NCBI RefSeq assembly: GCF_011059105.1
Contig: NZ_JAALLS010000002.1
Coordinates: forward strand, 62,001-126,000
Direction of reading: 5' to 3'
Source: Fodinibius halophilus
Lineage (GTDB): Bacteria > Bacteroidota > Rhodothermia > Balneolales > Balneolaceae
Length of the DNA: 64,000 nucleotides
Under the pieces are notes generated by a model. The model saw only the letters and a list, made by a program, of their open reading frames with translations, searched no databases and was not told where the DNA came from. Positions 40,740 to 61,208 of the stretch are shown piece by piece (positions within the stretch are counted from its first letter, which is position 1; every line of letters begins with the position of its first letter). The position numbers and the translations under genes are program-made.

Positions 40740-41744
40740 TTACTCAATTTTCCCAATGGTAATGACTTCTTCATTCATCGCATCAGCTTTTTCCCGTACT
40801 TTATTTGCCGTATCAGCATCTACGATAGCAATGAGGCCAATACCCAGGTTAAAAGTAGATCGCATATCGTCTTCGGGAACGTTCCCGATATCCTGAATTA
40901 ACTCAAAAAGAGCCGGACGATCCCAGGCATCCCAATCTATGTTGATGTTAAGATCATCGGGTACTACGCGCTTGGTATTTCCAATAATTCCGCCACCGGT
41001 CACATGAGAAAAACCATGTACGCCTTCAAAATCTCGTAGCTCTTTGATAATGGGTAAATAAGATTTGTGAACTGCAAGCAGTGCTTCACCTACGGTTCCA
41101 TCAAGCTCTTCTACCTCATCAGATACTTCATACTCAGAAAACAGCACTTTACGAGCCAGCGAATAACCGTTCGTATGCAATCCCGTACTGGGGAATCCCA
41201 ACAGTAGATCCCCTTTCTGAATATCTTCACCGTTGATCACTTTTTCGCGATCAACCAAACCTACAATGGTTCCGGCCAGATCAAATTCGCCCTCACTGTA
41301 GATATCGGGCATTTCTGCGGTTTCCCCGCCGATAAGTGCTACCCCATTTTCTTTGCAGGCTTGGGCAAAACCTTTAACAACTTCGTAACCAACATCTTGC
41401 TCCAGTTTCCCGGTAGAAAAGTAATCCAGGAAGAACAGGGGATCTGCACCACAGACGGCTATATCGTTTATGCAGTGATTCACCAGATCTTGGCCAACCG
41501 TATCATATTTTTCGGATTTAAAAGCTACAATAAGCTTCGTTCCTACGCCGTCAACACTGCTCACAAAAACAGGATCATCGTAGCTTCCTAAATCCGGACG
41601 AAAGAAACCGCCAAAACCACCGATATTGCTTAATACCGCATCGCTGTGGGTCTCTTTTACTACGCCCTTAATTGATTCTACCATTTCTTCTCCGGCTTCG
41701 ATATCAACGCCGGCGTCTTTGTAGGTAAATTTCTTTTTACTCAT
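40740..41744 (-). CDS. purM: Phosphoribosylformylglycinamidine cyclo-ligase
   Basis: A 334-residue AIR synthetase, the fifth step of purine synthesis. Landmarks are YKDAGVDIEAGEEMVESIKG at the N terminus, SVDGVGTKLIVAF, VNHCINDIAVCGADPLFFLD, ALIGGETAEMPDIY, and FSHVTGGGIIGNTKRVVP. Length is close to the usual 340. It overlaps the upstream YfiT-like gene by four bases. Confidence 0.96.
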   Translation of the reverse strand: MSKKKFTYKDAGVDIEAGEEMVESIKGVVKETHSDAVLSNIGGFGGFFRPDLGSYDDPVFVSSVDGVGTKLIVAFKSEKYDTVGQDLVNHCINDIAVCGADPLFFLDYFSTGKLEQDVGYEVVKGFAQACKENGVALIGGETAEMPDIYSEGEFDLAGTIVGLVDREKVINGEDIQKGDLLLGFPSTGLHTNGYSLARKVLFSEYEVSDEVEELDGTVGEALLAVHKSYLPIIKELRDFEGVHGFSHVTGGGIIGNTKRVVPDDLNINIDWDAWDRPALFELIQDIGNVPEDDMRSTFNLGIGLIAIVDADTANKVREKADAMNEEVITIGKIE

Positions 41745-42268
41745 TGCGTCCAGTTTTTTCGCTTTTTCAAAGTTGTGATGTGTGCCAGATGATGTTTCCC
41801 GTGCCAGGCATAAAGCCCAATCAGGCTTTTAAGCACAAGTATACCTTTGTCGGGATGAACTAGTTCTCGGTTGAGCTGATTTTTATCCAGCGATTTTAGT
41901 ACATGAGTCCAACGCTGGTGAATACCCGTAATCATTTTCAGTGAAGACGCTACAGGTTGCATCGTATCACTGAGATTAGCCCAGGAATCCTGATCATAGG
42001 ATTTTATGGTCGGTTTATCTTCTGTAAGTGTCAGTTTTACTCGTAAATAACCATTTAAGTGGCTGTCAGCAATATGGTGAATCACTTGCCGAAGGGTCCA
42101 ACCATTTTCCCGATAAGGAGTATCAAGTTGTTCGGTTGTCAGTTCTGAAACTTCATTCCGGAGCTGTTCTGGTAATGCTTCAATCTCGTCAATCCAGCGG
42201 GCAATATCCCTGGGAGAAATAGGATCTTGGGTCTGGTATTGACCGATCGGATATTTGAGACTTTGCAT
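41741..42268 (-). CDS. YfiT-family bacillithiol-transferase-like DinB protein
   Basis: A 175-residue DinB-superfamily protein of the YfiT type. It opens with LKYPIGQYQTQDPISPRDIA. Three metal-binding His motifs are present: RQVIHHIADSHLNGYLRVKL, and LYAWHGKHHLAHI near the C terminus. In the family such proteins transfer bacillithiol to toxic electrophiles or metals. It is the first gene of an operon with purM, and its promoter lies in the DnaA-box-rich region at its 5' side. Confidence 0.88.
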   Translation of the reverse strand: MQSLKYPIGQYQTQDPISPRDIARWIDEIEALPEQLRNEVSELTTEQLDTPYRENGWTLRQVIHHIADSHLNGYLRVKLTLTEDKPTIKSYDQDSWANLSDTMQPVASSLKMITGIHQRWTHVLKSLDKNQLNRELVHPDKGILVLKSLIGLYAWHGKHHLAHITTLKKRKNWTQ

Positions 42269-42299: not shown

Positions 42300-42727
42300 T
42301 TTTAACTGATATGAATATAGCCAACTTGGATCTCGTTTTTAAGAATTTTTTCTCCACATTATCCACCGGAAAACACTAAATACTATAAGATTATAATATT
42401 TGTAGTACATAGTAGTTGCTGTGGATAAGTGGATAACTTTTTGATACACACCAATATAAAATTATTAACAGTATTGTGGATTATTTTGTGGAAAACTATC
42501 GTATAAAAAACAATTACTTAGCGGTAACTAATTTTGGTTATCCACAATCCACAAAAAAGTGAGTGTCAAGAAAAAAATGTTATCGACACGAATTTTCGAT
42601 TGGATAACCTGTGGAAAACAAAATTAAGTTGTTGAAAGCTGTGGAGAAATTTTGTTGGTTTTGAATGTTCTATTTTGAGAAGAAGTTATACACATACTTA
42701 TCCACACACTTATCAACAGACTTAAAT
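42300..42727. other. Candidate replication origin (oriC): DnaA-box cluster
   Basis: A 430-base AT-rich non-coding segment. Perfect DnaA-box matches (TTATCCACA or TTATACACA) are at 42420-42428 (minus), 42538-42546, 42686-42694 and 42698-42706. One-mismatch boxes lie at 42359-42367, 42428-42436 (minus), 42475-42483 (minus), 42487-42495 (minus), 42580-42588, 42610-42618 (minus), 42640-42648 (minus) and 42710-42718. An AT-only run ATTATAATATTTGTA near 42390 and CAATATAAAATTATTAA near 42452 could be the unwinding element. Plus-strand composition changes from C-rich to G-rich genes across this point. oriC is inferred; binding by DnaA and origin activity are not shown. Confidence 0.8.
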
Positions 42728-43168
42728 ATGAAAGTAGTTCTACAACGGGTATCAAAAGCGAGTGTTACAGTCGACGATGTGCGAATCGGAGAAATATCAG
42801 ATGGATTGATGCTGCTGGTCGGTATCCACGAAGATGACAGCGAAGAGCAGATGGAATGGCTTGCAGAAAAGATTTTAAAGCTTCGTGTGTTTGATGACGA
42901 AGGTGGCAAAATGAATTTATCGGTTCAGGATGTAGAAGGAGAAATTCTGGTTGTGCCCCAATTTACCCTGTACGGGGATTATGAGCAGGGGAACAGGCCC
43001 AGTTATTTTGAGGCGGCTGGGCCCAAAAAGGCTAAACAATTATATAAAGAGATGATCACCTATTTTGAATATAACTCTGCTCTAAACATAGAGACAGGAA
43101 AGTTTGGGGCCTATATGGATGTCCAGCTCAACAACGATGGACCGGTTACATTGGTTTTAGAGCAGTAA
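42728..43168 (+). CDS. dtd: D-aminoacyl-tRNA deacylase
   Basis: A 146-residue homochirality proofreading enzyme that removes D-amino acids or glycine from tRNA. It starts at MKVVLQRVSKASVTVDD. The catalytic-site strand VPQFTLYGDYEQGNRPS and the C-terminal cis-proline motif GPVTLVLE are both present. An in-frame extension upstream to 42665 runs into the DnaA-box region and is rejected. Confidence 0.95.
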   Translation: MKVVLQRVSKASVTVDDVRIGEISDGLMLLVGIHEDDSEEQMEWLAEKILKLRVFDDEGGKMNLSVQDVEGEILVVPQFTLYGDYEQGNRPSYFEAAGPKKAKQLYKEMITYFEYNSALNIETGKFGAYMDVQLNNDGPVTLVLEQ

Positions 43169-56743: not shown

Positions 56744-58690
<1,947 letters not shown>

Positions 58691-58748
58691 CAGCGATCTG
58701 ATAACACAACTAAATTTAGATTAACACTGACTTAGATTAGAATTATCT

Positions 58749-61208
58749 ATGGCGAAAGAAAAAATTGTACCTATTGCGATAGAAGATGAGATGCAATCGG
58801 CTTACATCGATTATTCGATGTCGGTTATTGTGTCTCGGGCCTTACCCGATGTTCGGGATGGTATGAAGCCGGTCCACCGCCGTATTCTGTACGGAATGAG
58901 CGAGCTGGGTATGCTTCACAATAGAAATTATAAAAAGAGTGCTCGTATTGTAGGTGAGGTGTTGGGTAAGTATCACCCACACGGCGACTCTGCAGTATAT
59001 GACTCTATCGTTCGAATGGTGCAGGACTTTTCTCTGCGTTATCCGTTGGTTGACGGGCAGGGGAACTTTGGTTCTATTGATGGCGACTCTGCAGCGGCCA
59101 TGCGTTATACTGAGGTTCGCATGCAGCGTATTGCCGAAGAGATGTTGACTGATATCAACAAAAACACGGTCGACTATCAAACAAACTTTGATGATACCCT
59201 GCAAGAGCCAACCGTTCTGCCGAGTATGTTGCCAAACTTACTCCTGAATGGTGCTTCGGGTATTGCCGTGGGGATGGCCACTAATATGGCGCCTCATAAT
59301 ATTACGGAAACTATTGACGGGATCGTTGCCTATATCGACAATCCTGATATCGAATGTGAAGAGTTGATGGAGCATATTACAGCTCCCGACTTTCCAACGG
59401 GCGGTATTATTTATGGTTATGGCGGAGTTAAAGAGGCGTATGAAACAGGGCGTGGTAAAATTACACTACGAGCACGCTGTACTACCGAAGAACTACGGCA
59501 TGGACGTGAACAGATTGTAATTACAGAAATACCATACCAGGTCAACAAGACTACGCTTGTTAAAAAGATTGCCCGGTTGACCCAAAATGATAAGCTTGAT
59601 GAGATTTCTGAGATTCGCGATGAGTCTGACAGAGATGGAATGCGTATCGTAGTTGTGCTGAAACGTAATGCTAATACAGGCATTGTGCTTAATCAGCTCT
59701 ATAAGTATACGCAAATGCAGACCACTTTTGGGGTTATTAGCTTAGCACTTGTGCAAGGGCGGCCCAAGGTGATGCCGCTCAAAGAGCTTATCTACCATTA
59801 TGTTGAGCATCGCATTGAGATTATTATTCGCCGAACTCTTTATGACTTGGATCAGGCGGAAGCTCGAGCTCATATTCTGGAAGGCTTAAAGATTGCCCTT
59901 GACGATCTTGATGAAGTCATTAGAACTATTCGAGGATCTGACAGTCCTAAAGAGGCAAATGCAGAGCTCCGCCGTAAGTTTGCTTTAACTGATATCCAAG
60001 CTAAAGCAATTCTGGATATGCGACTGCAAAAGCTAACCGGACTCGAACGCGATAAGGTTGAACTTGAGTACAACGATATCGCTGAAAAGATTGCAGAGTT
60101 TAGAGAAATCTTGTGGAACAGGGGTCGTCAGACTGACATCATTAAAGAAGAACTCCTCGAGCTACAAGATCGCTACGGTGATGCACGTCGTACACAAGTA
60201 GTACATTCTGCTGAAGATTTCAGTGTCGAAGATATGATTGCTGATGAGGATGTGGTAGTAACCATCTCCAATAAAGGATTTATTAAACGTATGCCAGTCA
60301 GCGGATACCGACGACAGAAGCGCGGTGGTAAAGGAATGAAAGGTACAACTACAAAAGATGATGAATATGTAGAGCATCTGTTTGTGGCTACTAACCATAA
60401 CTACATACTCTTCTTTACAGAGAAGGGACAGTGTTACTGGTTGAAAGTTTACGAAATTCCCGAAGCTTCCAGAACGGCAAGGGGGCGAGCAATAGTCAAC
60501 CTTATCAATATTGAAAAGGATGATTCTATCAAGACCTTTGTGCCTGTTAAAACGCTTGATGATGAAGAGTATATTAACAACCACTACATTATAATGGCTA
60601 CTAGAGAAGGTCAGGTTAAGAAGACTTCGCTAGAAGCATATAGCCGACCTCGTAGTGATGGTATTATCGGAATCAATATCAAGGAAGGTGATGCATTGCT
60701 TGAAGCTGCACTTACAGATGGCGAGAGTAATGTACTCTTATCAAATCGAAAAGGCCGTGCTATTCGGTTCCATGAAGATGAAGTACGAGATATGGGGCGT
60801 AATACGACCGGAGTTAAAGGCATGGACCTTGGCGAAGAGGATAATGAGCTTGTTGATATGGTTGTACTCAGAAATACTCACGAGGCAACGGTATTGGCCA
60901 TCTCCGAAAATGGATACGGTAAACGTTCTCTTGTTGAAGATTACAGGGAGCAGAGCCGTGGAGGCAAGGGTGTAATTACACTTAAGGTAACTCAAAAAAC
61001 AGGAGAACTGATTGCACTCAAGCAAGTCTCTGATAAAGATGACCTTATGGTAATAACGGAAGGCGGAAAAGTAATTCGAATGAATTGTGGTGGCATACGA
61101 ACAATGGGGCGTAATACCCAGGGAGTTCGAATAATGCGACTCGATTCTGACGGTAAAATTGCTGCCGTTACACCGGTCGTCAACGAAGAAGAGGATGAAA
61201 CGGTGTAG
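58749..61208 (+). CDS. gyrA: DNA gyrase subunit A
   Basis: An 819-residue DNA-cleaving subunit. The catalytic Tyr120 is in [12 protein letters not shown]. The quinolone-resistance region reads [15 protein letters not shown], with Ser81 and Asp85, the sensitive residues at the E. coli 83/87 positions. The C-terminal six-bladed pinwheel contains the GyrA box KRGGKG near residue 520, which separates gyrase from topoisomerase IV. It is co-transcribed with gyrB. Confidence 0.97.

Follow-up and report, generated by a model that had tools for sequence, protein, structure and literature searches.

The DnaA-trio, 3'-GAT-5', belongs to the basal unwinding system (BUS) described in B. subtilis, and 85% of the bacterial origins that were surveyed are predicted to have a BUS (PMC8287927). 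In the Bacteroidetes, the replication origin (oriC) is commonly found far from dnaA (PMC4755523). The window considered here, which is the whole stretch of 64,000 nucleotides that was analysed, corresponds to bases 62001-126000 of contig C12 (343862 bases) in the 91-contig, 4.19-Mb draft genome of a Fodinibius-group bacterium, to which Fodinibius and Aliifodinibius are the closest named genera. The segment at window positions 42350-42718 is almost certainly the chromosomal replication origin of this bacterium. It is a predicted DnaA-dependent oriC with an element of the basal-unwinding type, fixed beside dtd across the Balneolales.

A DnaA-box cluster upstream of dtd

When a DnaA box was called with at most one mismatch, 13 boxes were found on both strands at 42350-42718, of which 3 are perfect (TTATCCACA; 42420 on the minus strand, 42538 and 42698 on the plus strand) and 10 carry one mismatch. 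The array lies in the non-coding gap between a DinB-like gene (41741-42268, minus strand) and dtd (42728-43168, plus strand). In 1000 simulations of the same 428 bases under a first-order Markov model, the number of boxes averaged 0.23 and never exceeded 3, and the background of contig C12 is 0.18 boxes per 430 bp. The rest of the window contains isolated DnaA boxes and no second cluster. Of all 51-mers in the intergenic region, the one starting at 42368 is the least stable, and for stability it ranks in the lowest 0.25% of contig C12. The features of the locus are the following:

42350-42718, no strand: proposed oriC, 13-box cluster in the non-coding gap (box scan, GC-skew change point)
42350-42367, plus: left tandem DnaA boxes TTCTCCACA TTATCCACC, facing the AT-rich stretch (nearly invariant, 13 aligned loci)
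42368-42419, no strand: AT-rich candidate DNA-unwinding element of 52 bp, with trios and spacer counted in (stability scan)
42400-42415, plus: DnaA-trio-like segment TTGTAGTACATAGTAG, 4 bases from a box (genus and family conservation)
42420-42436, minus: right tandem DnaA boxes TTATCCACT / TTATCCACA, 8-nt pitch with one base shared, facing the AT-rich stretch
42475-42495, minus: two more DnaA boxes, TAATCCACA and TTTTCCACA (genus-conserved)
42538-42546, plus: perfect DnaA box
42580-42588, plus: DnaA box TTATCGACA
42610-42648, minus: two DnaA boxes, one of them (42640-42648) inside the nearly invariant block AAGCTGTGGAGAAATTTTGTTGGTTTT
42686-42718, plus: group of three DnaA boxes (TTATACACA, perfect, TTATCAACA) directly before dtd
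42728-43168, plus: dtd, D-Tyr-tRNA(Tyr) deacylase, origin neighbour (Pfam PF02580, E 2.4e-58)
41741-42268, minus: DinB-superfamily (YfiT-like) gene, neighbour on the opposite side (Pfam PF12867, E 8.8e-21)
40740-41744, minus: purM, AIR synthase (Pfam PF00586/PF02769)

The block AAGCTGTGGAGAAATTTTGTTGGTTTT (window 42638-42664), which surrounds one DnaA box, is nearly invariant in the genus. The gyrB and gyrA genes are adjacent to each other at window 56765-61208, about 14 kb from the origin.

An earlier, sequence-only reading of this DNA had proposed a replication origin here on the basis of at least four perfect and about eight one-mismatch boxes. The cluster and its place stand, while the counts are corrected to 3 and 10. 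The same reading described the cluster as the only one in the window, noted AT-rich tracts among the boxes and placed dnaA outside the window, all of which agrees with the box and stability scans and with the location of dnaA at G000:C6:71844-73250 in the same genome.

Anatomy of the putative unwinding module

The module consists, in order, of the plus-strand boxes TTCTCCACA TTATCCACC, the 52-bp AT-rich stretch and TGTGGATAAGTGGATAA, in which two tandem minus-strand boxes have one base in common; nine further boxes and the nearly invariant block make up the right part of the cluster. The AT-rich stretch has the same starting position as this least stable 51-mer and terminates in TTGTAGTACATAGTAG, separated by a spacer of four bases from the adjacent box and carrying TAG on the strand expected for a BUS. 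According to the box-trio distance rule (PMC8287927), one or more boxes should lie within 16 bp of the trios and on the correct strand, and this is the arrangement found at 42400-42436. The Fodinibius trio run reads GAT-GAT, a one-base interruption and CAT-GAT, so that strictly contiguous 3'-NAN-5' trios number two, where the BUS criterion is at least three; in many relatives within the family, at least three TAG/TAA trios follow one another without a break at the equivalent position. A single strand across the convergent boxes folds better than shuffled sequences (z -3.3), but this is due to the boxes being inverted and is not counted as evidence for a functional hairpin.

GC skew at the cluster and at dnaA

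For the draft genome, the skew was drawn contig by contig (among others the 344-kb C12, and C6). The cumulative minimum of C12 lies at C12:103768 (window 41768) and the change point at C12:104000 (window 42000; bootstrap range 100.0-113.5 kb), next to the box cluster, which is at C12:104350-104718 in contig coordinates. None of 1000 block permutations of C12 reached the observed skew statistic. Open reading frames in the leading direction amount to 30 of 69 on the left of the switch and 93 of 175 on the right, and since their orientation is unbiased, gene direction does not account for the skew. Contig C6, which carries dnaA, has a positive skew nearly throughout and no sustained sign change.

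In G002, a genome of the same genus, dnaA (305 kb) and dtd (920 kb) are on one contig. The sampled 20-kb stretches are all negative from 0 to 920 kb and all positive beyond, with the local minimum at 920097, within a 12-box cluster. Its dnaA lies well inside the negative arm, 615 kb from the cluster, and there is no skew switch at 305 kb. G043, a single contig of 4.29 Mb from a different Balneolales family, carries a cluster of 7 boxes next to dtd, at 269746, and its local skew minimum is at 267792, with the far sign change near 2.2-2.3 Mb, roughly opposite; the skew of this genome is weak and noisy, and it is therefore taken as supporting evidence only. The G043 record is numbered from dnaA, which is 269 kb from the cluster. 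A skew switch at the cluster also recurs in several 20-kb loci of the genus.

Conservation beside dtd

In each of the 12 genus genomes, the 500 bp preceding dtd hold 8-13 boxes, and every one of these genomes has exactly one copy of the 16-bp trio segment TTGTAGTACATWGTAG, about 320 bp ahead of this gene. TAG repeats are found at the equivalent position across the family. For the Balneolales as a whole, the module precedes dtd in 61 of the 67 loci with enough sequence (62 matches were listed, of which L252 is spurious by its position), about 360-395 bases from dtd, and the length of the spacer between the convergent boxes is 51-57 bp in nearly all loci of the order. A stricter scan, which covered about 1.75 Mb in total from the own genome, G002 and G043, returned three copies of the module, all beside dtd and none elsewhere. 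One member of the order with a draft genome (L088) has no boxes before dtd. Judged by eye, purM is directly on the other side of the cluster in several loci from other families; in the own genome, the DinB gene intervenes between purM and the cluster. Outside the order, no box cluster was found near dtd, either in 18 loci from the same class (presumably Rhodothermales) or in the other Bacteroidota sampled, which indicates that the location is particular to the Balneolales.

Two predictions of the earlier reading are thereby borne out: the skew minimum at the cluster was found in C12 and G002 and, more weakly, in G043, and the conservation of the cluster beside dtd extends through the genus and the family to other families of the order. 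Together they support the interpretation of the cluster as a replication origin. A bolder proposal, which we put forward tentatively and at somewhat below even chance, is that this is an undescribed Balneolales origin architecture, with an unwinding element of almost constant length (51-57 bp) between convergent boxes and one-sided trios, which came to lie between purM and dtd in the ancestor of the order and has remained in that place, with dnaA hundreds of kilobases away.

Alternative explanations and other DnaA-box sites

Box clusters away from dnaA include datA and DARS, at which DnaA is titrated or reactivated. To our knowledge, such sites would not be expected to have an unwinding element or a skew switch. 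Were the true origin at dnaA, the dtd cluster would merely titrate DnaA in a similar manner, or regulate dtd. DnaA-titration clusters are known in E. coli, and the dnaA promoter region has a small conserved box group of its own (4 boxes in the own genome, G000, and 5 in G002). The skew, however, switches at the dtd cluster and not at dnaA (C6; 305 kb in G002), the module of trios and unwinding element also sits at dtd and not at dnaA, and while a titration site would be a cluster away from the skew minimum, this one coincides with the skew switch, making such an explanation very improbable. Elsewhere in the genome (C31, C34), DnaA boxes accompany replication and mobilisation genes of a plasmid-like kind, and the cluster could likewise be regarded as an origin brought in by a plasmid or mobile element that became integrated. 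Its neighbours are however housekeeping genes (purM and dtd, with gyrB/gyrA nearby), and both its conservation beside dtd across the order and the skew contradict a mobile origin, the probability of which we consider negligible. Equally hard to credit is a skew switch caused by a past inversion or a change in gene orientation, with the boxes there by coincidence: a single contig could mislead on skew, but the coincidence of switch and cluster recurs in G002, in G043 (weaker) and in several 20-kb genus loci, gene orientation is unbiased around the C12 switch, and 13 boxes are far beyond chance.

Other box sites were noted in these genomes. The small conserved group upstream of dnaA (G000:C6:73331-73600, G002:C1:304762-305031) has box spacings of 98 and 163 bp that are equal in G002 and G009, and probably serves dnaA autoregulation; as a candidate, an origin at dnaA is rejected on the skew of C6 and G002. 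At L061 (G000:C1:191985-192060), two perfect convergent boxes 67 bp apart lie just before a gene resembling, by eye, a B12-dependent ribonucleotide reductase, and box pairs of equal spacing occur at G000:C16:77520-77595 and G002:C2:1285922-1285997; the L061 pair is possibly a DnaA-regulated promoter. Three perfect boxes at G000:C11:9407-9531 are upstream of a P-type ATPase-like gene, in a region with no skew switch. This site was rejected as a second origin because it is without the unwinding/trio module and lies 63 kb from the skew minimum of C11. The boxes of L063 and L064 (G000:C34 and C31) adjoin plasmid- or element-like replication/mobilisation genes, with short repeats that include TTAATTCGTA or its inverse, and the two are apparently related mobile elements. 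In five genomes of the same class outside the order (G107, G117, G076, G108 and G110), two genes each passed the curated cut-off for the dnaA family.

Proposed mechanism of opening

The own genome has one dnaA and one DciA gene. With the dtd cluster taken as oriC, and following known oriC biology, DnaA produced from the distant dnaA gene would bind the box array, and the tandem minus-strand boxes (42420-42436) would guide it onto the TAG-trio strand (42400-42415). By the same reasoning, DnaA extending along the trio strand would open the 52-bp AT-rich element. The left tandem boxes (42350-42367) face this same element from the other side and, as a guess, could keep DnaA in place where the bubble ends on that side. 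The DnaB helicase would then be loaded, as at known origins, probably with the assistance of DciA by analogy with PMC5109545, and two forks are expected to depart bidirectionally.

Comparison with known origins

The purM/dtd location and the layout of this oriC were not found described in the literature searched, although DoriC may list the location. The earlier suggestion that the arrangement is undescribed holds for the dtd/purM location within that literature; to present an origin away from dnaA as new would be too strong, because this is common in the Bacteroidetes (PMC4755523). What appears to be new is the order-specific location and the conserved layout, the separation of oriC from dnaA being already known. 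For an order about whose replication very little has been learnt, the result is a precise oriC prediction that extends to the probable site of opening. It corrects the numbering of such chromosomes from dnaA (269 kb off in the example of G043), provides a marker for metagenome growth-rate estimates, and supplies about 60 natural variants of the origin in which the importance of individual bases in the trio/box module can be tested.

Compared with datA/DARS, the dtd cluster has both an unwinding element and a skew switch. The oriC of Prevotella intermedia OMA14 is likewise a box cluster at the skew switch and far from dnaA (PMC4755523), but the neighbouring genes of the Prevotella-type Bacteroidetes oriC are different from those found here, where dtd is the neighbour. 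Melioribacter roseus, a deep relative in the Bacteroidetes/Chlorobi group, also has a DnaA-box origin at the skew switch, which unlike that of Fodinibius lies between dnaA and dnaN (PMC3534657). With the BUS oriC of the B. subtilis type (PMC8287927), the Fodinibius oriC shares the tandem boxes, the four-base spacer, the TAG trios and the AT-rich stretch, all in the same order, and it differs from this type in its distance from dnaA, in the second set of boxes that faces the AT-rich stretch from the far side, and in a trio run that is broken by one base.
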